From Isoetes taiwanensis (lineage: Eukaryota > Streptophyta > Lycopodiopsida > Isoetales > Isoetaceae), in the NCBI GenBank assembly GCA_021234155.1, contig JAJEKV010000005.1:27618689-27682688 (forward strand): DNA of 64,000 bases, given 5' to 3'. How positions within the stretch are numbered: the stretch's first letter is position 1; each line of letters begins with the position of its first letter. The notes beneath the pieces are model-generated. The model had not been told where the DNA came from and did no database searches. It worked only from the letters and a program-made list of their open reading frames with translations. This document shows positions 9,953 to 27,195 of the stretch, one piece after another. The translations under genes and the position numbers were made by a program.

Positions 9953-12187
9953 AAATGAAAAAGGCCACAAAGGAACTTCCTCTAGAAAAATGTCTCAACA
10001 AATAATTGTCGACATCGACGATTCGAGAATTCTGAAGCGAGAACGCCCAACCCTATAAGTCCAACTTTACACAAACCTTCTGCCAAGTTTATAATCAGCA
10101 CATATCCACCAAGGATCAAACCCAGAATGATGGATGATGATAAGGTAAACTGCAATTAAATGCCCACCGAATGTAAAACCAAGCATAAGTCCAGATGCAA
10201 AAATTGATATTTAGGACATGCATATAAGAAATTTGGTCTAAAATAAACTTGATGTATTGATCAAGGCGAAGAAACCCATAGAAATATGTGAATGAGCCTG
10301 GAAAGCAACGTGTAAAAAAGTGAAGTGCGTAAGTGACGTAAAGCATGAGAGCAACAACTTAGATCACAATGAAAGTAAACTTGCAAAGATTAATATTAGG
10401 ACCAAATTAGGCTAATATGGGCAAATACCAGATAAGAAATCAAGTATACCATCTCCCGGATTAGCATGCCACAAAGGACCGAATGCACTGTATAAGTAAA
10501 AACAATTTACACTTGCAAAAGGACATCGTATAAAAAACACACTGCAAATTACTAATTGAAACCCTGCCAAGGCACCCCATGTTCTAAACAAAAGTCCTGG
10601 CATGATTAATAATAAATAACAATTGTAGGCAAACCATGGGTTAGAAAAGATGAATGTCCAACAATAAATGAGGCCGCAAAGTCCCAAAAAAGATCACGTG
10701 GCTATTGAATCCAAACAATGACTTGGGAATTATACATTCTCGGAATGCAATTCAAATCTACTAGACCCTGGTAAGAGCTACCCAAATTTGAATTATTAAG
10801 GAAAATGGTAGCATATGGCGGTCATGTAATTATCAAAACATGAAGCACCATTATCAAATGATGCAGGAATAAGAATAAATGAGTATTATACGAGGTGAGT
10901 GGACTAAGCACAATGAATAGAGAAACGAAGTATGAAGAAGTGTGGGTGGAGCAAGCTAAATCCAATAACACTGCAGGAATTATAAATCTACTAAAACCTT
11001 GGTGTCACCCCATAGTGAAGTACGTTAGCAGATGAAGGCCATTTATATTATCAAAACATGAACGCGCATTATGAGCAGATGAGTAGGACACACGATTAAC
11101 AATTTCGACTGGGTTAATAAAAGGTGCAAAAACAACAATACACAATTAAGTCCCAAGGCTGGTAAATAGTTGCAAGAAGATTAACAAACTAGAAGGGATA
11201 CAGGGTGACTGTATCCCTCCAAGATAAAGCAGCAAATTGAACAAATGGAGAAACGATGAAGCCGGCCGGATTAGGGAGAAAAAAGAACAGGCCAGATCGA
11301 GGATGGCAGAACTGATTACGTCCAGTCTTGAGACTGAGCTTCTGAGTAAGCTGCAGCCTGAGAACATCTACTGTTAGGCTTCTGAGCAAACTGAAGCATG
11401 AGAGCTCTGGGCCTCCTGATGCAAGAATCGCAGAGCAAAAGAGATGATGGAAAAGCGAGAAAAGGTCAGACAAAGGAAGGAAATTTGTAAGCTGGAAATA
11501 GGCTGGGCGATGACGCCGAAGACAGCAGATTAGAGGCGACGAAATTGAGCTGAGAATGAGCTTCGACTCCGGAAGAACTGGCCGAGTTGGGTGGATCGAA
11601 CAGAGCCAAGAAGATCGGTTAAGCTGGATTTCGTAGCAAAACTGCACAAGAATTGGAACTACCAAGCAAATCCGAGAAGTCTGTGCTGTCGTATGCCTTT
11701 GGCCCCTTGTGAACTGCATAAAATCCAGTGGACCGGAATTGTGGTATCCCGAAGTGAACCGAATCTGGCAGAAATGAATCTAGCCAGGTAGGCACAAAGG
11801 GGTTAGAGATGCAGAGCCATGGAATCGAGTTTTGGCGGCTGGGCAGATCCGACTGAATTCCGGCTTTGTTAGACAAAAAACCAGAAGGAGATGACAGAAA
11901 ACTGTTAAAGAGAATGGAAAAAACAGTAAGATCGTTACCAATAAGTAGCCGAAACTTTTGCTTTGGAGCTCTCCCCAACTTGCAGATGCACAGATCGATG
12001 CAACAGTCTTCCCTCCTGCAATAGCCCAGATAAACCCAGGCAATCTCTTCCCTTTGAGAAAACGACAAAAGATCCAGAAGAGCGTGGCATCCAAATCCAA
12101 TCGACCTCCGTATACAATCGGCAGCAACCTCTGTGGCCTCTGTGACATGGATGTGTGCAACTTCCCCGCCTGCAAGATATGGACAAA
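9953..12187. other. Non-coding DNA between the Harbinger and CACTA elements
   Basis: No domain is recognisable. From about 11,150 to 12,187 the base composition rises and long minus-strand frames overlap in several registers, which is typical of stop-poor non-coding DNA. No LTR, TIR or tandem structure is apparent. Confidence 0.45.
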
Positions 12188-12199
12188 CACTACAAGGGA

Positions 12200-12618
12200 C
12201 CAACGTAGATAATCGACATTTGTCCGTCGATTCTCGACCTAAACAGGTCGACAATCGACGGTCAACGTCGATCGTCTACGTTGACCAGTCAAACGTCGAC
12301 CGGTGACCATTGAACGTCGATCATCGACGCTCAGTTGGAGTGACGTGTCGCCTTTGGCCTCGTGGCATGCCTACCTAGTCGCCCGACGGCTGCGTGGCTG
12401 TGCGCGTGGCGTGGAACGTCGATCATCGACGTTGTGTCGATGATGACATGGCATGCTGGCCTGGCCGATGCCTACGTGGTCCCCCAGCGCCAGCGTGGCT
12501 ATGCGCGTGGCGTGGAACGTCGATGATCGACGTTGTGCCGAGATGACGTGGAATGCGGGGTCTGGCCGAGGCCGACGTGGTCGCCCGTGTGGCATGCCTA
12601 CGTGGTGTTGAACGTCGA
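12200..12618. repeat. CACTA left subterminal array: CGTCGAT-N-ATCGACG palindromes
   Basis: AACGTCGATCATCGACG, AACGTCGATGATCGACG and variants occur repeatedly. Two successive GCGTGGCGTGGAACGTCGAT units are spaced by about 100 bp. In CACTA elements such subterminal repeats are bound by the TnpA-type accessory protein; the role here is inferred. The array ends abruptly inside a palindrome where the GC-rich tandem array begins. Confidence 0.75.
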
Positions 12619-12619
12619 T

Positions 12620-15229
12620 GATTTTCGCACAACCGTCCAAAGCACGCTTCGCGGTTTGGCAAGCTCTGCCGGACGGATCTTGAATTTTTTGAAACCTGCT
12701 CGAAGCAGGGCCATTGAAAAGAGGATTCAACGGCCAAATAGATGAACCGAGCTTCGGGAGGGCGGGCATTCGTCACGGCTCCCGCGGAGGGGAGGGTGGC
12801 GTGACGGGCTCCCCCGGGGAACTTTTTGGGGTCCGTCTCTTGGGGTATGGCCTCTACCCTCCCTTGAGGCCTCCACCAAAGTCCCGGACTCGTTCAATTG
12901 GGGAAGGGTGCGCCCAACAACAAAGGCCCGGGGACGGGGCGGGTGTGTTGGCACCCTTGCCCTTGCCGGATCCGTCCAGGACCTTGCACAGTGTCCCTTG
13001 CGTGAGGGGATCTTGGCGCCCGAGGAAGACGGAACCTTAAAACCATTGTGGAGGCAACTTGCCCCGACGCCCTCTCCCAAAGGGCCCGACGGCGGGGCGG
13101 CAGCTCCCCGCCTCTGGAATTGTGAACCGGATTGTTCCAATGGACTCGAACGCCCGGCATTATGCAGGGGACCAAGGCTTGGACTCGTTCGAATTGGGGA
13201 AGGGTGCCGCCCAACAACAGGCAGCCGGGACGGGGGGGCGGGTGTGTCGGCACCCTTGCCCTTTCCGGATCCGTCCAGGACCTTGCACAGTGTCCTCGCC
13301 TAGAGGGAGGATGTTGACGCCAGAATACGGAACCTTAAAACCACCCGGAGGCAGCTTGTCCCGAGCGTCCTCCCCCAAAGGCCGCGACGACGGACGGGCA
13401 GCTTCCCCTTCGTAATCGCGAACCGACCGTTCCAATGGACTCGCTGCATTAGGCATTATGCAGGTTACCAAGTTTCGCAGGCAGAAGACCACCCCATCTC
13501 CAAGAAGCTCCAAAGCGCCTCATATCCAGCACTCCTGTAGTCAATTGGCTTGGGAGGTGGCTGTGGAATACTGCCATGTGTGGCGTTCGTGTTCCCTTCT
13601 TTGGAGAAATTGACCGTGTAACCTGGTCACTAGGGTAATGCCGCCATTCCGGACATAATGGCGAAGTCGAATCGCCATTCCGGAGACCCCTGACTGCCCG
13701 AATGGCAAGACCCTTGGATTTTCGCACAACCGTCCAAAGCACGCTTCGCGGTTTGGCAAGCTCTGCCGGACGGATCTTGAATTTTTTGGAACCTGCTCGA
13801 AGCAGGGCCATTGAAAAGAGGATTCAACGGCCAGATAGACGAACCGAAGCCGGGGAGGGCGGGCATACGCAGCGTCGGCTCCACCTGAGGAGGCGGTGGC
13901 GCATGAGGCTCCCTCGGGAACTTTTTTGGGGTCCGTCTCTTGGGGTATGGCCTCTACCCTCCCTTGAGGCCTCCACGCGAAAGTCTGGACTCGCTCAATT
14001 GGGGAAGGGTGCCGCCCAACAACAGGCAACCGGGACGGGGCGGGTGTGTTGGCACCCTTGCCCTTGCCGGATCCGTCCAGGACCTTGCACCGTGTTGTTG
14101 CGTAGAGGGAGGATCTTGACGCCGTAAGACGGAACCTTAAAACCATTGAGGAGGCGGCTTGCCCAACGCGTCCTCTCCCAAAGGCCCCCGACGACGACGA
14201 CCGGGCAGCTTCCCGCCCAGAATTGCAAACCGACCGTTCCAATGGACTCGTAACGCCGGCATTATGCGAGGGGACCAAGGCTTGGACTCGTTGAATTGGG
14301 AAAGGGTGCCGCCCCGACTTGGCGGCGAGGGGATGGGCCGGTATGTCGGCACCCTTGCCCTTTCGGATCCGGTCGGGACCTTGCATGATGTCCTCGCCTA
14401 GAGAGAGGATGTTGACGCCGTATCACTGAACCTTAAAACCACCCGGGGCGGCTTGTCCCGAAGCGTCCTCCCCAAAGGCCTTGACGCCGGACGGGCAGCT
14501 TCCCCTTTCGTAATCATGAACCGATCGTTTCAATGGACTCGAACGGCCGGCATTATGCGAGGGTTACCAAGTTTTCAGGCGGAAGACCACCCCATCTCCA
14601 AGAAGCTCCAAAGCGCCTCATATCCAAAGCACTCTGTAGTCAATTGGCTTGGGAGGTGGTCGTGGGATCTTGCCATGTGTGGCGTTAGGTGTTCCCTTCT
14701 TTGGAGAAATTGACCGTAACCTGGTCACTAGGGTAATGCCACCATTCGGACATAATGGCGAAGTCGAATCGCCATTCTGGAGACCCCTGACTGCCCGAAT
14801 GGCAAGACCCTTGGATTTTCGCACAACCGTCCAAAGCACGCTTTGCGGTTTGGCAAGCTCTGCCGGACGGACATTCGCGTACGGCTCCACGGAGGAGCGG
14901 TGACAGTACGGGCTCCCTCGGGAACTTTTTTGGGGTCCGTCTCTTGGGGTATGGCCTCTACCCTCCCTTGAGGCCTCCACGCAAAGTCCTGGACTCGTTC
15001 GAATTGGGGAAGGGTGCCGCCCAACAACAGGCAGCCGGGACGGGGGGGCGGGTGTGTTGGCACCCTTGCCCTTGCCGGATCCGTCCAGGACCTTGCACCG
15101 TGTCCTTGCGTAGAGGGAGGATCTTGACGCCAGAAGACGGAACCTTAAAACCACAGGGAGGCAGCTTGCCCCGAATGTCCTCTCCCAAAGGCCCCGACGA
15201 CGGACGGGCAACTTCCCCGCCCCAGAATT
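12620..15229. repeat. GC-rich tandem array, 1,097-bp units (left portion)
   Basis: The landmark TTTTCGCACAACCGTCCAAA begins at 12,622, 13,719 and 14,816, giving two equal periods of 1,097 bp. Each full unit contains two related sub-repeats about 295 bp apart, marked by GGATCCG-(G)TCCAGGACCTTGCAC-type text. The third unit is cut by the retroelement insertion and resumes after 25,535. Long open frames on both strands here are by-products of high GC and are not coding. I know no named family for it. Confidence 0.85.
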
Positions 15230-15389
15230 TGTAACGGGTCCATGGTAGACCGCTCGAGTATTCGAACCATGAATGTGCCTGTGGGGCATTCCCGAGACAC
15301 CGGCATAAATGGGTAGAAGCGACTACTCATAAACGTCTAGACGGTTTTGCCCAGTTGGTTAAGGGCATGTCGGTTAGGAACGTTACAGT

Positions 15390-15404
15390 TGGTATCAGAG
15401 CAGG
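15390..15404 (+). other. Primer-binding site, initiator tRNA-Met type
   Basis: TGGTATCAGAGCAGG follows the LTR end after two bases. TGGTATCAGAGC is the standard plant LTR-retrotransposon PBS complementary to the 3' end of initiator tRNA-Met. Confidence 0.85.
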
Positions 15405-15529
15405 CCTCGAGTTCGAGTCTCCATGGGTGCCTATATGCATGGGTAATTTGCAAAGACTTGGTAATCATTGTGACATGGTATGACATAGACATAGTATAGC
15501 CTTGGATGCTCGAGGACGAGCATAGTTCT

Positions 15530-15541
15530 AGTGGGAGAGAC
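15530..15541 (+). other. Polypurine tract of the TRIM-like element
   Basis: GTGGGAGAGAC lies immediately before the TGTAACGGG start of LTR 2, where plus-strand priming would occur. The same tract appears in reverse complement at 23,049 before the inverted copy. Confidence 0.75.
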
Positions 15542-18182
15542 TGTAACGGGTCCATGGTAGACCGCTCGAGTATTCGAACCATGAATGTGTCTGTGGGGCG
15601 TTCCCGAGACACCGGCATAAATGGGTAGAAGCGACTACTCATAAATGTCTAGACGGTTTTGCCCAGTTAGTTAAGGGCATGTCGGTTAGGAACGTACCAA
15701 CTGTGACGAGCCTGCCGAGTTGACCCTCTTGGCAACTCGGGAACTTGTCTATACTTAAGGCTAGATCTATGTTGTTATGAAAACTTTAATCAACTATGTT
15801 GGTGAAGAATTTAATCTTCCAATAAATAATAATAAATAATGGAAAATGATTCCCTTCTTACATATAGCTAATATCCGACTATTGTAATATAACTCCAAGA
15901 GAAATACATCCATAATAGATTTATGCAAAACCAAAGCAAAGATTCATCTTCTAGAAACTCCAACTCAGCCACGATCCTGAGAAGTATTGTTGTTACTGGC
16001 CCGAGCACCACCTTGCTCAATCACTGCATGCACTCAAAGGGGTTAGTCCTTGTGACTAAGTGGGGATCCCATAGCTGCCTCTGCATGCATAAAACATCTT
16101 GGAAGTCTTGAATAACAAACATAAATGACTCAAAGACACAAGAATCTATAGTGCAACGCTAGACTATGACAATAAAGAAAACATCATGAACATCAAGAGC
16201 AAAGAACATAACCAGAGTACCAAACCATCATAAACAACTCCGGGACAATGGGTAGCTCAGCCAGCCTACATACAGGCCCTGTTAGCAGCATGTTGCCCAG
16301 CCAACTTACATTCCAAGCCCTGTAGCAGGTGGTGGGGTGAACCTCGTATGCGCATACCCTCTCAGCCCATGTCTGGCACTGGAGGACCTCTTACCATGGG
16401 GTTTCACAAGAGTTGACTGACGTAGCAATCCCTGACAGGAGAACTAACGCCCAGTGTCACAGAGCACAAGAACCACAGAGAATCACAGATGAACATGAGC
16501 ATGCCGGAGCAACCTAGGCCACCGAACCTAGAAGTCCGACCGCGGAGGTTCCAAGTACATACATAATATCAAGAACGACAGTGGATCAATTCAAAGACCA
16601 TAACATGTATGTTCATTAGAGAATTAACTATAAATGTGCCTAGATCATACTCTTAGCCCTTGTCGAGGTTGCCCATACTACCTACCCATGCCGAAGTAGC
16701 TAGATCGGTGATGAAAACCCTGATGATAACTCAAATATTGTTGTAGCATGCTCAAACCACCCCTATAAGGTCGATGCAGTACTCACTTCAGCATATTATT
16801 TACTTAAGCTACCTTAGTTATGGTTTCAAGATTTTTATATTAAAATTCCACTTTCATAGCTAACTAATTTATTGAGACAAGTAATGCGGAGTCTTATAAT
16901 TCTGTGCTTACAACCTTAAAATCTACAGGATCTTATGACCGCAACTGTCGGTAAGCCTTGTCCGCTGATCCCAGGCTATGCCCCATCTCCAGGAACAAGC
17001 TCGTACAATTATCTGAGTTATTTACTTATAGAAGAGAGATTTATTCTTCCTTAGCATGTTATATTCAAGAAATGCAGAGCACATATTATTTCGCATGTTT
17101 CATCTAAATCTTTTGCGACAGGACCTGGGTGTACTCTGTGGATGGTCGGTCCTCAATCCAAACCCTTGAACTTTCTATTGCTTTCCTTTGAGCCACTAAT
17201 ATATGTATTGAAGCTAAATATGAATTACTTAACAAACAATGGACAAAAGTAACAATTAGTACCAAAAAAAAATAACAAACAAAAAGCAAGCAAGATCCAA
17301 AGACTGTGGCAGCCCCCAAAATGCATCGATTCTTCCGATTGAAGACTCCACAAGGCAAATCGGCCTTTCTAAGCCCAAATCGGCCCTTTGTTTCGGCATG
17401 ACCCAAAGATTCCACATGGATTAATCCCTTCCGACCAGCTCTTGGATGCCCGAAATCTGCAAACTTTTCAGCCCTTGTTCACTCAAATCAACGGATGTTG
17501 GAACCAAATTCGGCCCTTCTAGGCCTAAATCAATGCCCTCTAATCAATTTTGGCATGTTTCGATGATTTCGAATCCAGCCCGATGGCTCCAAATAAAACG
17601 GCTGCAAACAAGATCCTTGAGAAATCCAACAAAAGATCCTTCTGATTATGAACTTGGGCATGGTGGAATCATGTCCAACTGTGGTAGCAATTCACGGACC
17701 TCGAAAGCGGATTCTATCACGTAGCATCCAATTCAATCTCCATAGTTTCGCTCTGAGATAACTCCTAATCCAGTCTTAACAATGAAGGCATGGCAGTTTA
17801 CCTCTGTATCTCCAGTTCACAAGCTTATGATCTCACAAAGCATAGACATCTCTAATCGTGGCTACAACATATCTCCCTTTAAGGGCCATCACAAAACCCA
17901 TCTGATTAGATCCAAGTCTGGCCCTTACCAGACCTGTACAAAGACACGCACAGATGCATAGCATATGCAACCTTTAATTGAATCCTAAAAATTAGAATTC
18001 AAACCCCACCTCTTAGAGAAGATTTGATGCAGTCTTCAAGCTCTAGCGTCCCTGCTTGCTTCCTTCGACAATCCTCCAAAAAGCACGGTCTCTACTCCAC
18101 GTCTCCAAAAAAGCTTCTAAACTCCTTTCTCAATTTCCTCTCCAATTTATAGAGCTTATACTTATTTTTAGTTCTGCATTCT

Positions 18183-18628
18183 TGTTAGCCCTTTGGGCTA
18201 AACATATGTATGAGTGGCATAGGCCACATGTATTTATCACATTGGACCACTTGATCTAGAGCCCAGATTTAGCCCACATATGTGGTAGGTGGCATAGGCC
18301 ACATGTATTTGTCATATTGGACCCCACAATCTATGGCCCAGATTTAGCCTAGATCTGTGAAGGGTGAGATATCATTTAGGGTTAGGGTTTTGCTCTACTA
18401 TTTAGAGAGAGCATTTCCTCTCATTGTTTAGGCTTTTGCTCACGTTTTGGAGCACCTCCTTTTGGAGCATCAATATGATTCAGTTTTGTTCATTCTTTGC
18501 TTTGTTCTTGTTCTTGGAGTTCTTCCCATCTTCTTTTGTTGATCCATGAGCATTTGTGGCAGCCTTGTGGCATTCGGCAGTCATGGACTGCTGCTGCAAG
18601 GTGATGCCAAGAACCCCAAACATCAACA
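18183..18628 (+). repeat. LARD 5' LTR
   Basis: Starts TGTTAGCCC and ends ATCAACA. Carries a GTGGCATAGGCCACATGTAT palindrome-like motif twice (near 18,216 and 18,290). Followed at once by the PBS. Confidence 0.92.
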
Positions 18629-18629
18629 C

Positions 18630-18646
18630 TGGCGCCGTTGCCGGGG
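18630..18646 (+). other. Primer-binding site, tRNA-Asp type
   Basis: TGGCGCCGTTGCCGGGG is complementary to the 3' end of plant tRNA-Asp, including its CCA. This primer is typical of several plant Ty3/gypsy lineages and their non-autonomous derivatives. Confidence 0.88.
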
Positions 18647-21600
18647 TCTCTTGGGCTCATGATCACCCTCTTGTTTTTTCTTTCAAGCATCTCCAAAAGT
18701 TTTCAAGAAAAAATTTGGTTCTACATCGACACTGTCTTCACTCCTCACCTCTGCTATATCTGCCCACGTTTTTTTAAAAAGGGGCGAACTAAGATTGTTA
18801 TTCGTCACATATGGGTTCATTATCCACCTTGTTTTTACTATCCATTATCCACCTTGTTTTTACTATCCATACTCTGTTCTGTGTAAACATTCAAGCCACG
18901 AGCATATATTTGTTCCATTTATTTGGGTTCCTCATAGACACATTTTATTTTTGCTATCCTGTGTTTTCTGTGTTCTGTCTATACATTCAGGCCTAGAAGC
19001 CCCATTTCTTCTGCGACATTTGGAACAGAGAATGGTTCTTCTGCAATTTTCTGCCAGCACAGATTTTCTGCACAGAGGCCCAACGGCTCTGCACAGATCT
19101 TCTTCTTAGCACAGAGGCCCAACGGCTCTGCAATTTTTCCTGCTCAACGGCTTGCAGAAGTTTTTAAGCTACGATCAAAGCCCACCAAAGGGATCTTTCT
19201 TTTCAAGAATATCTGCTTCCAAACTCGGCAAATCATCATTATGTTGCAGTTTTCTACAGCCACAAAGCATGTCTTCGGATCCGCTTGTGACACCGTCCGG
19301 CCTGGCAATTTTCAAGTGATACCTGGGGCTCTGTTTTGCACATAGTTCCTTACAACACCTCTGTTCTTCCATACCTGCAACCATTGCATGACATTCGTTC
19401 TTCATCGACTTTTTATTCTCTGTCCTTTTTGATGTGGTCTTGCTTGGACAAGCAAAACCCCCAAGAAGAGGCCCAACGGCTCTTCCACAGGCATCTGTCT
19501 TTTCTGAACCTCTGCAGAGTTTTTCTTTGGGTTACCACTTGGAGCAGATGTCTTGCACATTTTTCAGCTCCAGCCTTGGATTCGTTCTTTTGATTCTTCA
19601 CAGACACTTGCTTGGGATTTATTCCTTGACATGCTGCACAGATATGGAGACAATAAGGTTAAATCCCCATCATTCTTTGGAGCTGATGCATTTTTATCAG
19701 GCCGCCCATCTGTTTACCTGCAAAAAGGGGCAGGGCCTCTGTTCGATGACCCATTCGTGGTAGAACTTTCTACGCCAATCAAGGCTATATCGATTGGCAC
19801 CGCGATCCTTTCACCGAGGATTCTTCTCTTATCCCCACTTTCACGTAATTTTAAGTCGCGCCTATTATTTAACCTTCGGATGATTTTGCACAATCGATAC
19901 AAAGTCATTCCTTTCCTCGCTTAACCAACTCAAGAGCATCAAGACATCTAGTTATACATCAAGGTTATCATTCAATATCAAGCATGTATTCCGTTCAACT
20001 TTCCTCCTCTCATTCTTCCAGTCACAGATAGCTCTGGTTTTGTCCACATCATAGCAGACCAGTAAAATCCGACGCATCTCTTGGAGCAACATCACAGGAG
20101 CCATACTATCTCTCTACTGAAGTATTTTGGTGGCCAGGAATGCCCTCTTCCTACACAATCTTTTCACACATAATACACTGGGAAAGCTTTTCACATTGTG
20201 GCTTTCGCTGCAACCTAGAACCGCCCCTGTTTATGCAGTCTTCATGTGCATCTACCAACCAGCCACGCCCCACACTGCAACACTTCACCCTTCATAGCCT
20301 ATGGTCTGGCGTCAGTCTAGCAAGCAGAGCATCCATGTTACAAATATTGAAGGCGTTCCACCTGCAGCCATCTAGATCTACCACGGCCCACCTATTCGCA
20401 GAAGAAACTCGGCTTCAGCCATGGATTTGTAAGGAAACATCAAACATCCTACAGCACTCTATAGATCAGTTGCAGACAAAAGCGTGAATAATCTATCTCC
20501 CTCTACCATCTGGCTCCACGACCTTTCATGACTCAGAAAACTCACGGCGTGACTTTGCACCCCACGGCCATCACGGCGTGGCTTCTCAGACCTTTGAAGC
20601 TTCACGGTTTGGCAGTCAGGCTTAGCCACAACACATTTTTGTTCTTGACATCACGGCCTTCCACGGCGTGTGTTAGCCCATCACGGCGTGGCCTCTCTGC
20701 CCTCAAGAACCTCTCCCGTCAGAGCACCAAACTGTTCCGTCAGAGCATCAGCGCCCCACGGCCCCTCACGGCGTGGTCCGATATCAGACCCCCCACGGCC
20801 CATCGCGGCGTGGGCGGCTCCCCGGCCCATCGCGGCGTGGCCTCTTCGCCAGTAAGAACCCGCGGTCTAGCCACCACAACTTTACCGGCCCTTCACGGGT
20901 GTGGCACCACGGCTATCTTTAGCGCCCACGGCCTTCCGCGGCGTGGCACCGGATTTCGGCGTGAGAAATGGCATCACAAATATCTTCAATGCCTCAGTTT
21001 TTCTCCTTTATGGCAACACTTGGTCCTTAGGCCATTCACGATGGGCAACATTTTTGGTATTTTCCACTTCTACTATTGAAGAGTTTTTTTATACCATCTA
21101 TCTCGTTCTATACATGGCATGCTTATATGAAAATGGCGTGAAGATGATTCAACCTTCCGCCCCTTTCATACCTCAACCTTACATGGCCCAACGGCATGTT
21201 AAGGTCATTCTTCAGCAACTCAATGCACAACTCGATCCCAACCCCTTGGCGTGATTTTTAATGGTGACTTCTTGACCTCTTGTCAAATTTTTGAGGCATT
21301 ATGCCTTTGGAGGAACCACTTTTCATCAATCCATAATTCCCGCATCATCCTTCTCTTTCGGCAACAAAATCACGGCCCAAAGGCGTGCGTTCATCAAAAT
21401 TGTCACGGCCCCTCACGGCGTGACTTTGAGCACAACTTTCAATCCTCTTTTCATGCAAGAAATCTTTGGAGCATATTTTTGGCACATTTTGGGGGACGCC
21501 TCATCTTTTGCCCGACGATTCTTAGATCTGCTTTGCACCTTTGTACCAACAAATTTCAAGTTCCTGCAATGGCGTGAAGATGAATTCTGCCTTCCGCCCC

Positions 21601-22097
21601 TTCGTACATCAACCTCACATGGCCACATGGCGTGTGCAGGCCAATTTCAACAATTTCTCTTTGGTGTCAACTTTTTCAAGTTCAACCTTTTGATCAACCA
21701 CATCCGTCCATAATATATGGCGGTTGAGCCTCGTTCAAGTTCAACAAATGGCGTGAAGATGACTTAGAACCTTCCGCCCCTTCAAAAATTTTCCTTTCCA
21801 AATTTTTGTTCAACTCCTTACAAGACACTTTGATTGGCGCATGTATTTAGAGCTAGTGGCACGCTCTATGAGAAGTGGTGACAGCCTTCTCAACCTTAGA
21901 TTCGACTTCTATGGCTTTAAAGGAGCTTGTGGCAAGCTCAAGAGAAGTGGTGACAGCCTTCTCAACCTCTTACGATTTTTGTACTTCATCGACATTGGCA
22001 TTTTTTTCAAGACTTCGGCGACATTCTCATTATTTCCCCTCACTTTGGACACTGTTGTAAATGTTTAACCTGATGTTATAAAGGTTCTACATAGTTT
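18647..22097 (+). other. LARD interior: non-coding, repeat-rich
   Basis: No retrotransposon protein can be found. About 19,070-19,500 has several CCCAACGGCTCT motifs. About 20,540-20,960 has a dozen or so CACGG-CC / CACGGCGTGGC motifs. GGCGTGAAGATGA followed by CCTTCCGCCCCTT occurs three times (near 21,137, 21,571 and 21,750). GAGAAGTGGTGACAGCCTTC is repeated near 21,870 and 21,943. The open frames through these repeats are accidental. Confidence 0.7.
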
Positions 22098-22114
22098 GGT
22101 GTGGTGGGGGGGAG
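22098..22114 (+). other. Polypurine tract of the LARD element
   Basis: A GGTGTGGTGGGGGGGAG run directly precedes the 3' LTR start TGTTAG, the usual plus-strand primer site. Confidence 0.8.
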
Positions 22115-22560
22115 TGTTAGCCCTTTGGGCTAAACATATGTATGAGTGGCATAGGCCACATGTATTTATCACATTGGACCACTTGATCTAGAGCCCAGAT
22201 TTAGCCCACATATGTGGTAGGTGGCATAGACCACATGTATTTGTCATATTGGACCCCACAATCTATGGCCCAGATTTAGCCTAGATCTGTGAAGGGTGAG
22301 ATATCATTTAGGGTTAGGGTTTTGCTCTACTATTTAGAGAGAGCATTTCCTCTCATTGTTTAGGCTTTTGCTCACGTTTTGGAGCACCTCCTTTTGGAGC
22401 ATCAATATGATTCAGTTTTGTTCATTCTTTGCTTTGTTCTTGTTCTTGGAGTTCTTCCCATCTTCTTTTGTTGATCCATGAGCATTTGTGGCAGCCTTGT
22501 GGCATTCGGCAGTCATGGACTGCTGCTGCAAGGTGATGCCAAGAACCCCAAACATCAACA
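22115..22560 (+). repeat. LARD 3' LTR
   Basis: Same length as the 5' LTR and, by eye, identical to it except for one base. Ends ATCAACA and is followed by the ATTCT target duplication. Confidence 0.92.
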
Positions 22561-22651
22561 ATTCTACATGCATTATCTTGCATGCATGTCAAACATGTAT
22601 CTACGTACATGAGTATGTATACTGGCCCATCAAGCGGCCAGGACCGTTACA

Positions 22652-22890
22652 GTCTCTCCTTCTAAAATTGGACCCATGTCCTCATGGGTCGATCCCAGGA
22701 ACTATCATGCTTACTTAAAATATACTAACAATGGGAAGCAAAATAGACAACTGTTTTAAGCAATGAGATAGAATCCAAGCTATTACAAACCTTACCTGGG
22801 ATTCGCACTATAGAAGCTTCCTGAGCACCGTCACGTGGAGCTTCTACGACGTAGATAATCGTTTGGTGTCGCGGAAGATCCATTCTCAAC
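22652..22890 (-). other. Internal retroelement segment between LTR-like blocks
   Basis: Read on the minus strand it begins after GTTACA of the 158-bp LTR with GTTGAGAATGGATC and ends with the purine tract AGAAGGAGAGAC before TGTAACGG. This is an internal-domain layout, but the PBS text differs from TGGTATCAGAGC. No coding potential. Confidence 0.5.
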
Positions 22891-23048
22891 TGTAACGTTC
22901 CTAACCGACATGCCCTTAACCAACTGGGCAAAACCGTCTAGACATTTATGAGTAGTCGCTTCTACCCATTTATGCCGGTGTCTCGGGAACGCCCCACAGG
23001 CACATTCATGGTTCGAATACTCGAGCGGTCTACCATGGACCCGTTACA
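22891..23048 (-). repeat. Inverted copy of the 158-bp TRIM-like LTR
   Basis: This is the reverse complement of 15230-15387, same length, with a few differences (for example GCGTTCCC instead of GCATTCCC). With the next feature it forms an inverted repeat of the left-hand TRIM, about 7.2 kb away. Confidence 0.9.
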
Positions 23049-23202
23049 GTCTCTCCCACTAGAACTATGCTTGTCCTCGAGCATCCAAGGCTATACTATG
23101 TCTATGTCATACCATGTCACAATGATTACCAAGTCTTTGCAAATTACCCATGCATATAGGCACCCATGGAGACTCGAACTCGAGGCCTGCTCTGATACCA
23201 AC
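23049..23202 (-). other. Inverted copy of the 154-bp TRIM-like internal region
   Basis: This is the reverse complement of 15388-15541, same length and nearly identical. The purine tract is at its low-coordinate end and the PBS (GCTCTGATACCA in plus orientation) at its high end. It abuts a long LTR-like block instead of a second 158-bp LTR. Confidence 0.9.
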
Positions 23203-25535
23203 TGTGACGGGCCTGGCCAGTTAACCTCTCGGTAACTGGAGATCCCATCGATCTCTACCGTTGGATCTATTTAACCGTTGCAACTCAAGAAATTAATACA
23301 TGCATACCTAGGTAAAGAATTTAATCTTTATACGTGCTCTAAGGTCCCAAAAATTCTATACTTGCCATTGCACGTCAAAACCCCACACAACAACCAAGTT
23401 TAAAAAATAATTATAGTTTTAAGCCAATCCATAATGATAATAAGAATATTAAGCAAATATATGGTCTAGCAATCCACACACTCCTACTCTCGCCTTTCTG
23501 CAGCTTGGCTACTTTCCGGAGCATCTCGCACTTCTGCTTACACCATTTAACCACGGGGTTAGTCACACGGACTAAGTGAGGATTGGGAATTTAGAATATA
23601 TCAAGCATCAATTACCACAAGCATTAACTTAGAACAATAACTTAGCCTTACCGTAACCTCGCCCCTGCAATCCAAGTTACTAGTCCAACCAACATAAACA
23701 CAATGCATAATTATTCTAAGCACAACCATTGCAACTTGATTCCAGCATTAAAAACCACATATACTCTAGCCAAGCAACCATAGCATCAACATTGCAACCA
23801 ATATTCCTCTGGGTCTGAGCAAGGTCAACTCGGCTGATCAGGCCAGTGACATAGAGGCGGGGTAACCACGTGTGTACACACCCTTCCACGCTGCGTCCAG
23901 CATTGGAGGACCACTTACTGTGCATGACGTTGTACCTTACGGTACCAACGCCCGATGTTCAAAATACCATTTACATAGCACTGTGCAAACCGTGAGTCTA
24001 GACCATCGCACCTAGACTCCGGCCCCAGAGGTCTATATCAAAGAATTTCACCAAAGACAATTACATACATTTCACCATCATGCCCATGCCTCAACATACT
24101 CAACATCAAATACATTCCATAATTCACACTTTATGTAACATGAAATGTCCAACCATGCAAAAATGCAACCATCATTGCTAAACTAAAAACTAACGTCTAC
24201 ATTTTCTCAAAAGTTCCCTAGCTATAATTAAGACTATGTTAATGGTATTTAATCTATAGCATTTAAATATTATTATGCCTCCGTCATAAACTTCCTCCAT
24301 ACGGAGCACTTGTATCTTGGGTTTTTATTTTCTTTCTTACCTTAACTAATTTCTAAGGCTTTCAATATCTATAGCTAGATAACTTGTTAGACTCTACATG
24401 TCGTGCATAAACAGCTTCTACTCTCTAACCTATTATTGCTCATCTTACCCCTCGTTCCTAGATCAATCTGTGAACTCAAGGCCTTTTAACCACCCATCAA
24501 TGTTTTTAATTTAAATTTAACCTTAGCTATAGCTTAAAACTTTTAACTTTATTTCTATTACTACCTTACTAACAAAACTAAACTAATTGTTAACATCTTT
24601 TTTTCCTTTAACCTAACCCTAACTGCGTTACAGGTGACGAATCCGGCCTGCTGCTCCCGGATATGGCCTCCAGGCCATCGAATCCATGCCAAAACTCCCT
24701 AACTCCTCCCGATTTTGGTTGCAAGGAGGTTTTCTGGCCATTTCGGCCAGTTTCTGACCTAAATCCGGCAGTTCCGGATCAATTCCTGAGCACCAAGATC
24801 ATGGGATTTACAGCTGAATCTTGCTTTGATCTTCCTGATTCCTCATTCCTTTTCCATTTCGGCCTCCCTAAGGCCCAAATCGACCCATTTCTCATCACAT
24901 TTCATGCTTCCAGATCATCACCAATACCAGCATGCAAGGGAACTTTTACAGTTTTAACACAGTTTTAACTGATTCCAGCCATCCCTTTACCTTAATCCAT
25001 CCCTCATGTTCTAATATGAGCTATTCCAGTACTTCTGGCATGATCTAGATGCTTGTCTCACTTAGATCCGTGATACTTTTTGCAACTGTCAATATGCCAT
25101 CATAAAATACTTCCAAATTCAATCATGCAAGCTTTTTCCATATTCACGCACTTTTAGTTTAACTCTAAATCAATACTAAGTTTCATAACAATCCTACTGC
25201 ATCAACACAATTCAGCATGCACAATTTTGCTACGCTAGAAAACCCCAGGTGTAAGGCTTGATCCCCACCTGGAATCCCGCTTGTTGCTTTTTCTGTGCTC
25301 CAACACGCTCCCAGAGCTTTGCACGCGATTCGCTCCGTCAGCAATCCCTCTGCAATCAATCTTTTCCCAATGCTTTTCTCTGTACTTATATTTATTTTTA
25401 ACCACAATATTTCGTCCGTATAATCTCTACATATACGACGTATTTCTCTGCATACGTGATATTTTGATTAATATTCCTTTGCATCTTTTAAATAAAATAA
25501 TCCACAATTTACCTCAAAATCCTAGGTCCATTACA
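23203..25535 (-). mobile_element. Long LTR-like block (minus), right end of compound insertion
   Basis: It runs from TGTGACGGGCC to CCATTACA on the plus strand, 2,333 bp, and is preceded by a reversed PBS, so on the minus strand it is in 5'-LTR position. It is alignable in places with the block starting at 15,702 but diverged. No gene is seen; the roughly 2.3 kb is AT-rich with scattered CTAACCTAACCC-type text near 24,610. Confidence 0.7.
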
Positions 25536-25540
25536 GAATT

Positions 25541-26871
25541 GCGAACCGACTGTTCCAATGGACTCAGAACGCCGGCATTATGCAGGGGACCAAGGCTTGG
25601 ACTCGTTCGAATTGGGAAAGGGTGCCGCCCAGCAACAGGCAGCCGGGACGGGGGGCGGGTGTGTCGGCACCCTTGCCCTTTCCGGATCCGTCCAGGACCT
25701 TGCACAGTGTCCTCGCCTAGAGGGAGGATGTTGACGCCAGAATACGGAACCTTAAAACCACCCGGAGGCAGCTTGTCCCGAGCGTCCTCCCCCAAAGGCC
25801 GCGACGACGGACGGGCAGCTTCCCCTTCTCAGAATCGCGAACCGACTGTTCCAATGGACTCAGAACGCCGGCATTATGCAGGTTACCAAGTTTCGCGGGC
25901 AGAAGACCACCCCATCTCCAAGAAGCTCCAAAGCGCCTCATAATTGGCTTGGGAGGTGGCTGTGGAATACTGCCATGTGTGGCGTTCGTGTTCCCTTCTT
26001 TGGAGAAATTGACCGTGTAACCTGGTCACTAGGGTAATGCCGCCATTCCGGACATAATGGCGAAGTCGAATTGCCATTTTGGAGACCCCTGACTGCCCGA
26101 ATGGCAAGACCCTTGGATTTTTGCACAACCGTCCAAAGCACGCTTCGCGGTTTGGCAAGCTCTGCTGGACGGATCTTGAATTTTTTGGAACCTGCTCGAA
26201 GCAGGGGCATTGAAAAGAGGATTCAACGGCCAGATAGACGAACCGAGCTTCGGGAGGGCGGGCATTCAGCGTCACGGGCTCCACCGGAGGAGGCGGTGGC
26301 GTCTGGGCTCCCGGGGAACTTTTGGGGGTCCCGTCTCTTGGGGTATGGCCTCTACCCTCCCTTGAGGCCTCCACGCAAAGTCCTGGACTCGTTCGGAATT
26401 GGGAAAGGTGCCGCCCAACAACAAAGGGGCCCGAGGGGGGTGTGTTGGCACCCTTGCCCTTGCCGGATTCGTCCAGGACCTTGCACCGTGTCCTTGCGTA
26501 GAGGGAGGATCTTGACGCCAGAAGACGGAACCTTAAAACCACAGGGAGGCAGCTTGCCCCGAACGTCCTCTCCCAAAGGCCCCGACGACGGACGGGCAGC
26601 TTCCCGCCCGAGTTGCGAACATTGTTCCAATGGACTCGAAACGCCCGGCATTATGCGGGGACCAAGGCTTGGACTCGTTGAATTGGGAAAGGGTGCCGCC
26701 CGGCGGCGGGGCCGGGGGGCGGGTGTGTCGGCACCCTTGCCCTTTCCGGATCCGTCCAGGACCTTGCACAGTGTCCTCACCTAGAGGGAGGATGTTGATG
26801 CCAGAATACGGAACCTTAAAACTACCCGGAGGCAGCTTGTCCCGAGCGTCCTGTGCAATGCAGCCTGCTTA
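25541..26871. repeat. GC-rich tandem array, continuation after the retroelement
   Basis: The unit interrupted at 15,229 resumes here (GCGAACCGACTGTTCC), continues through TTGGATTTTTGCACAACCG near 26,112 and ends near GTCCCGAGCGTCC. The spacing of the landmark is about 1.0 kb once the insertion is removed, so this unit has small deletions relative to 1,097 bp. No gene. Confidence 0.85.
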
Positions 26872-26908
26872 GTGACCATGTCACGGTCAATTTCTCCAAA
26901 GAAAGGAA
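26872..26908 (-). repeat. Short inverted fragment of the array unit
   Basis: GTCACGGTCAATTTCTCC and its flanks are the reverse complement of the TTTGGAGAAATTGACCGTG segment found in each array unit (for example near 13,600). It marks a rearrangement breakpoint at the array's right edge. Confidence 0.7.
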
Positions 26909-27195
26909 CTAGGATATACACCATTTATGTTGTCTTTATCTAAGCCATGCAACAGAATAATATTTTGGCGTTCCACCCTTATCTCCATCTTCAATACTTG
27001 ACATACTTGGCTTTGACTATCATCATCTAGGCAAGAATCTGCTCCATCCTTTTCTTTCTCTACTCTTTGGTTTTGATTGTCATCAACTATCTCAGCATTA
27101 TCTAAGCCATGAGTTAAATTCGAGCTCATAACCCTAACCCAAGAGACGGACCCATCGAACGCAACCAATTCGTCGATATGTCCGTGAGATTGCAC
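26909..27195 (-). pseudogene. Unrecognised coding-like fragment inside the CACTA element
   Basis: A minus-strand frame of about 95 codons starts MQSHGHIDELVAFDGS and is acidic in the middle (EIVDDNQNQRVEKEKDG). It does not match a family I recognise. It lies just inside the CACTA element beside the tandem array, so it may be a relic of the element's own gene or a captured exon. It could equally be a chance frame. Confidence 0.3.

Follow-up and report, generated by a model that had tools for sequence, protein, structure and literature searches.

A composite of long terminal repeat retrotransposons with opposed ends and a single target-site duplication in Isoetes taiwanensis, probably assembled by end-joining of reverse transcripts

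Insertions that combine several long terminal repeat (LTR) retrotransposons within one target-site duplication have been described before. The passages of Sabot and Schulman (2007; PMC1950507) cited here present template-switching complexes with a single 5-bp duplication, three LTRs and several interiors, derived from more than one RNA; in each of four cases, two core sequences and an internal LTR lie between outermost LTRs that are alike, and dimerisation through R is modelled. Gao et al. (2016; PMC4717578) report tandem terminal-repeat retrotransposons in miniature (TRIMs), and a figure of cases tested by polymerase chain reaction includes one from maize in which two inverted TRIMs share the duplication CTTCA. 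According to the sections of PMC5618025 on circle junctions, an intact 2-LTR circle junction of human immunodeficiency virus type 1 (HIV-1) reads GTAC, from the AC and GT ends of the complementary DNA (cDNA), circularisation is ascribed to non-homologous end joining, and some junctions carry primer-site or transfer RNA (tRNA) sequences. Beyond PMC1950507 and PMC4717578, we found in the open-licence literature no integrated head-to-head, multi-family cDNA composite with an analysis of its end junctions; in the relevant parts of PMC12312487 and PMC10794571, "head-to-head" is applied to other things. Here we describe a 10,306-bp segment (positions 15230-25535) in a 64,000-nucleotide stretch of DNA from Isoetes taiwanensis (the window, on contig C1056), in which pieces of a TRIM and of two long-LTR families, called A and D, stand in both orientations inside one duplication. 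All results come from one assembly of 1.66 Gb.

The segment is flanked by GAATT on both sides, at 15225-15229 and 25536-25540. Joined with a single GAATT, the flanks can be aligned across the join with three further units of the surrounding GC-rich array (left-hand alignments of 92.3% over 599 columns and 88.8% over 596 columns, right-hand 92.5% over 549, all with small gaps). These three units are themselves uninterrupted, which shows that the segment entered in one piece, as the first-pass annotation of the window had claimed from the GAATT pair and the restored array. The 1,097-bp period which that annotation gave the array is only one of several, since the offsets are 1005, 1080 and 1097 bp. 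Separate duplications around each internal block, the mark of sequential nesting, were not found: among 72 internal block-boundary pairs, the 5-base flanks are equal only for the outer pair (GAATT) and for one nested element at 18183-22560 (ATTCT), so that ordinary nesting does not explain the remaining blocks. The outer termini are both U3 starts, that of a 158-bp LTR (LTR-B) in plus orientation on the left and that of a 2,333-bp LTR (LTR-A) in minus orientation on the right, and the coordinates bear out the earlier description of opposed LTR ends. A normal LTR element has one U3 start and one U5 end at its termini. The parts of the segment are as follows.

15225..15229, no strand: GAATT target-site duplication, left copy; the empty site fits three array units
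15230..15387, plus: LTR-B, 158 bp, 5' LTR of the TRIM, with the outer U3 start; ordinary TRIM copies exist elsewhere
15388..15541, plus: TRIM interior, which begins GTTGGTATCAGAGC (primer-binding site) and finishes GAGAGAC ahead of the next LTR
15542..15695, plus: LTR-B, 3' LTR of the TRIM, without its last 4 bases; over 154 bp, it matches the first LTR-B at 97.4%
15696..15701, minus: ACCAAC, scar of the U5-U5 joint, made up of GT and the opening four bases of the primer-binding site, in reverse (GTTGGT reversed)
15702..18182, minus: larger part of LTR-D, with its U5 end at 15702; the LTR is about 2.57 kb in the D copy L009
18183..22560, plus: nested LTR element, later, inside LTR-D; ATTCT at 18178-18182 and 22561-22565
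22566..22651, minus: U3 start of LTR-D
22652..22884, minus: 3' end of the D-family interior up to the purine-rich tract, broken at 22884
22885..22890, minus: GTTGAG junction bases, of which GTTG fits the bases after LTR-B at the primer site and AG is unexplained
22891..23048, minus: LTR-B, 158 bp, 3' LTR of an LTR-A/TRIM chimera
23049..23202, minus: TRIM interior and primer-binding site, directly abutting LTR-A
23203..25535, minus: LTR-A, 2,333 bp, with the outer U3 start at the right
25536..25540, no strand: GAATT target-site duplication, right copy

Two junctions distinguish this arrangement. At 15,695, where an LTR had been said to meet a reversed primer-binding site, the TRIM 3' LTR indeed stops four bases short and is followed by ACCAAC and then by a minus-strand LTR end. 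A 27-base word spanning this joint occurs once in the genome with up to 3 mismatches allowed, and the idea that this very inverted junction is carried by a replicating family was rejected on that count; two matches that apparently cross the joint are ordinary TRIMs whose flanks start with similar letters. A hairpin at the joint is unremarkable (z-score -1.04). At 22,885, LTR-B and GTTG meet a D interior that is broken where six other D copies continue, and this is probably also a product of end-joining. The 25-base word across this junction is likewise found once (up to 3 mismatches), and with a query across the break, the other D copies shown match only from query position 7 on. Simple insertion of a TRIM into a D element at this point is not supported: all six D copies printed have GCCACAAT preceding AATGGATC, the window has GTTGAG, and the junction word is unique. 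The nested element at 18183-22560, whose LTRs are 99.8% identical over 446 bp and which has its own ATTCT duplication, is a separate, later, ordinary nested insertion.

The blocks belong to three families (TRIM, A and D). The left block (15230-15695) has the features of a TRIM, with 158-bp LTRs and a 154-bp interior that is judged non-coding by its length, and its inverted counterpart around 22,891-23,202, a pairing noticed at first pass, matches it at 98.7% over 315 bp. A genome search for TRIMs gave 1925 first-look candidates, of which 40 were scored; the three copies elsewhere with both flanks printed have the duplications AGTGC, ACCCG and ACTAT. We take the TRIM primer-binding site to be of the initiator tRNA-Met type. 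LTR-A and LTR-D gave no blastn match at E 1e-3 and resemble each other only in short terminal motifs; they belong to different families, and neither long LTR is a copy of the other. The D copy L009 has a 408-amino-acid frame matching Retrotrans_gag (E 8.6e-18) and Ty3_capsid (E 8.5e-9), and its interior between the LTRs measures about 1.18 kb plus 0.23 kb; the window holds only the 3' end of a D interior. The presence of gag without reverse transcriptase makes D a gag-only, non-autonomous element of Ty3/Gypsy type. In the A copy L010, RVP_2 (E 2.4e-5) and Integrase_H2C2 (E 3.9e-10) are found in separate frames; a reverse-transcriptase domain is absent from the three L010 pieces scanned, and no search for an autonomous A copy was made.

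The TRIM parts of the two strands share rare variants. They were compared with 114 LTR-B copies and 52 TRIM interiors from outside the window, taken from 39 best-match TRIM loci and from other fetched loci. All three LTR-B copies in the window have T at position 10 (2 of 114 others) and A at position 40 (0 of 114), and both interiors have C at 18 (2 of 52 others) and A at 106 (3 of 52, with three gapped). The copies of LTR-B in the window differ from one another by 2-4 bases in 154-158. This sharing suggests that the plus and minus TRIM parts derive from one TRIM source, and the four common variants argue against a chance meeting of unrelated insertions.

Although the exact junction at 15,695 is unique, its class recurs in the genome. 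Our pattern searches detect intact words only, repeat counts are lower bounds, and reversed patterns served as controls. A word for the U5 end of a TRIM facing that of a long LTR within 30 bases gave 12 matches, including the window, and the reversed control gave 0; one (C1029, L029) has no LTR-B and was dropped, leaving 11. A U3-U3 word gave 6 matches (control 0), and the four inspected (C907, C1067, C1030 and C1050) are all real; C930 and C1019 lie outside these four. A longer TRIM-TRIM U5-U5 word was found at three places (control 0), of which two are one duplicated locus. These two, L019 and L020 (C1078:20533256-20534482 and 20565097-20566321), hold the same TRIM-TRIM head-to-head composite with CAAGT, about 31.8 kb apart, and the locus was duplicated after the insertion, because composite, duplication and flanks are all shared. 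Their spacer resembles a reversed primer site in which TACCAA is replaced by TTGGTA. At three loci, the TRIM partner is a single 158-bp LTR-B (L031 513-670, L034 494-651, L043 398-555), which is either a later solo LTR or a joined strong-stop-like cDNA. Two candidates failed on inspection. C1062:2.235M (L018), taken at first for a second clean head-to-head TRIM pair, is rearranged and its left end is unclear. At C1072:4.64M (L044), a U5-U3 match, the block on the left is not the start of an LTR, and no duplication could be seen; for the former reason, this 17th locus was left out of the counts.

Sixteen loci were examined for outer duplications (the window; L018; L019/L020 as one; L024-L028; L030-L032; L034; C1050 with L033; L041-L043). 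The left LTR terminus is definable in 13, and C996 (L028), C1030:1.40M (L030) and L018, where it is not, fall outside the test. In 10 of the 13 composites, namely the window and nine others, the 5 bases beside the left terminus are found again immediately beyond a second LTR terminus to the right, where 0.05 matches are expected by chance (54 termini scanned); duplications taken from other loci matched in 1 of 154 trials. By the kind of outer ends, the composites and their duplications are as follows.

U3 ends on both sides: window GAATT, C1078 CAAGT, C276 ATCAA, C1031 ACACA, C1062 CCAAG
U5 ends on both sides: C1030:10.44M TTCAT
Mixed ends: C667 CTGTA, C935 TGGAA, C1050 ATAGG, C1067 CCAAG

The largest of these, on C1050 at 7049300-7078402 (L038, L009, L039, L033 and L040), spans 29.1 kb and contains D, A and TRIM pieces in both orientations between outer LTR ends with ATAGG. 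It includes three GT/AC joints and a 41-base piece of the LTR-D end in minus orientation followed by D interior in plus; some stretches match no reference, and repeated D units may have been amplified later. Composites of this kind look like a mishap that befalls these elements repeatedly as they are copied.

The letters at the joints bear on how the pieces came together. In these families, AC precedes U3 (GAGAGAC/TGTAAC) and GT follows U5 (CACA/GTTGGTATC; GTTGGC follows U5 in the D copy L009), and a blunt fusion of unprocessed ends would thus read ACAGT/ACTGT. Exact GT/AC is found in 2 of the 11 U5-U5 joints (C1030:1.40M and C1050), and another (C1062) reads GTTAC. Three of the 11 contain bits of the primer-binding site: ACCAAC in the window, G then CCAAC in C667, and GTTGGTATC then AAC in C935. 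The remaining joints have G (C199, C1038), nothing (C276), TTTAAC (C996) or TT (C1031). GT/AC also stands at three U3-U3 joints (C907, C1067 and C1050:7054062) and at one U5-U3 joint (C1050:7064348). The signs expected of end-joined cDNA, either GT/AC or a remnant of the primer site, are therefore present in the window as ACCAAC and at some sister loci as clean GT/AC. Junctions of another type, between LTR-A and the TRIM interior at the primer-binding site, also recur: a 37-base word gave 66 matches with up to 3 mismatches, 5 of them with an LTR-B-like tip GGAACG, and in all three loci fetched (L021-L023), long LTR, TRIM interior and LTR-B are consecutive. Such chimeras would be expected if strand transfer at the primer-binding site used strong-stop DNA of another family, and template switching is their best account. 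The 5' ends of two of them (C930:14.985M and C913) were not found within 2.7-2.8 kb upstream, and the region upstream of the C913 copy is itself a mosaic.

The segment probably arose when linear cDNAs that had been synthesised together were end-joined, either ahead of integration or in its course, in combination with template switching; we consider this its best explanation. In this account, TRIM, A and D, as non-autonomous families of Ty3/Gypsy type with near-identical primer-binding sites and LTR tips, would have been reverse-transcribed together. A template switch at the primer-binding site would have given a chimera of 5' LTR-A, TRIM interior and TRIM 3' LTR, whose U5 end, with primer-site bases retained, would have been end-joined to a D cDNA truncated on its 5' side. 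This D cDNA would still have had ACCAAC at its U5 end (two bases from the template and four that correspond to the 3' terminus of the tRNA primer), and there it would in turn have met a TRIM cDNA, at a U5 end that had lost four LTR bases, and been joined to it. The product, with two outward U3 ends, could then have been inserted by integrase with a normal 5-bp duplication. Behind this account stand the observed anatomy, the one duplication and its empty site, the recurrence of the class, the junction letters and the common rare variants; end-joining as the joining step, its timing and the enzymes are what we infer from them. Joining may have preceded integration, or integrase may first have inserted a single end of each of two molecules, with joining as the later repair; the 29-kb composite on C1050 favours some joining before integration. 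The earlier proposal of an aberrant cDNA of several elements, integrated once with a normal duplication, is retained here, whereas its strand-switched or self-recombined origin is less favoured than end-joining, because sister joints show exact GT/AC in U5-U5, U3-U3 and U5-U3 arrangements.

Several observations weigh against end-joining as the origin. Of the 11 U5-U5 joints, nine (that of the window among them) are not clean GT/AC, and each of the nine, taken by itself, could be a strand switch. A TRIM-TRIM U5-U5 word of looser form did not rise above background (13 rows, with 39 in the reversed control; only C1062 and C1078 were fetched of its places). Random joining should also produce U5-U3 joints, and a word for the U5 end of a TRIM next to the U3 end of a long LTR showed no excess (7 matches, one of them fetched, versus 13 in the reversed control), although the sensitivity of the U3 word is uncalibrated and possibly lower. 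No matching duplication was found for 3 of the 13 composites (C199, C1038 and C907) in the DNA fetched, also after extension, and three further loci have no definable left end. Finally, plain distance does not pair the TRIM parts of the window exclusively, and only the rare variants do: at 2 differences from the first LTR-B, the minus-strand LTR-B is equalled by two LTRs of L005 and one of L064, and at 1 difference (gaps omitted) from the left interior, the minus-strand interior is equalled by that of L024.

Of the other explanations, the one that survives best places the inverted joints within reverse transcription, with a growing cDNA strand that, near U5 or the primer-binding site, switches to a template of opposite sense packaged with its own; the inverted chimeric cDNA so made would integrate by two U3 ends. 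Junctions of the template-switch type do exist, as in L021-L023, and the joint in the window has a one-base overlap in addition to its primer-site bases, and most U5-U5 joints depart from GT/AC. Nothing obvious, however, would make a strand switch halt precisely at complete unprocessed ends, and GT/AC in three arrangements is what end-joining would leave, so that we regard this origin as unlikely. We give still less credence to two steps, in which a TRIM was first inserted at GAATT and an LTR-D/LTR-A cDNA was later captured at a break near its 3' end. An intact TRIM end and a reversed LTR-A start both finish in TTACA, and the right edge would look the same because this tip would mask the second join. 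The minus-strand TRIM piece nevertheless has the four rare variants of the left TRIM, which is unlikely for an unrelated resident copy, and five loci, including the window, have U3 ends on both sides with matching duplications of their own. Ordinary nesting followed by chromosomal inversion or deletion between inverted repeats is very improbable: suitable arms exist (15376-15706 and 22884-23214, 97% complementary), but by inspection, flipping between them leaves both outer U3 starts in place, the 72 boundary pairs hold no further duplication, and the outer signature recurs at other loci. Least credible is an assembly error at 15,695, since a false join in this repetitive region, unique in the assembly as the junction is, should not produce GAATT on both sides, shared rare variants or a recurring class with duplications.

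We tentatively raise a more specific possibility, that in this lineage integrase repeatedly inserts like ends (U3 and U3, or U5 and U5) of two cDNAs at one target, and that the free, unprocessed ends, with GT or tRNA-primer bases, are sealed by host end-joining, either directly or through further cDNAs. If so, the composites would preserve, like fossils, the traces of intermolecular concerted integration as it happens in vivo, a process that could build insertions as long as 29 kb out of many cDNAs and bring long inverted repeats into the genome.

Some further observations concern the surroundings and the nested and D elements. The GC-rich array (about 12000-15229 and 25541-27000 of the window) has 57-59% G+C, units of about 1.0-1.1 kb and internal sub-repeats of about 296 bp. 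An Rfam scan of the window returned nothing at gathering scores. Many short CACGGC/GGCGTG-like repeats lie in the young nested element around 20540-20960. Elsewhere in the genome, D interiors recur every 3.8-4.1 kb or so (C984:77103-89565, C1055:3674099-3685798 and C926:1919180-1939494), which suggests head-to-tail arrays with shared LTRs, formed by unequal recombination or from cDNA concatemers.

The composites appear to keep the ends of linear cDNA as they are before integrase acts (AC at U3, GT at U5, sometimes tRNA-primer bases), which are otherwise read from extrachromosomal DNA. They also suggest that different non-autonomous families are reverse-transcribed jointly. Inverted LTR repeats can arise in this way in a single step; they are possible silencing triggers, a role suggested for head-to-head or tail-to-tail LTR copies in the cited part of PMC11624286. 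Programs that find LTR elements by expecting two direct LTRs would likely miss or mis-date such composites.

The element at 18183-22560 is an ordinary nested LTR retrotransposon with a duplication of its own; the several pieces that make up the remainder of the segment share a single one. In this it resembles the complexes of PMC1950507, where one duplication around several elements marks one integration; GAATT and the empty site supply the same evidence here. Those complexes have similar outer LTRs, and the model implies that they point in the same direction, whereas the outer LTRs in the window, B and A, are from different families and opposed. Neither an inverted U3-to-U3 composite nor a cDNA-end junction is among the cases set out in the cited passages of that paper. 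The maize case of PMC4717578 likewise has two inverted TRIMs in one duplication, and indicates that such insertions are real in plants; it is named in a figure legend, and the cited passages give no mechanism, junction analysis or long-LTR partner. The parallel with 2-LTR circles (PMC5618025, in its account of junctions) is close, with the same GTAC fusion and remnants of primer site or tRNA, but a circle is one unintegrated molecule, and the composites join different molecules in several orientations and are integrated. As far as the cited parts of PMC1950507 and PMC4717578 extend, complex insertions with a single duplication were already known, and what is new here is inverted, multi-family composites with cDNA-end junctions.

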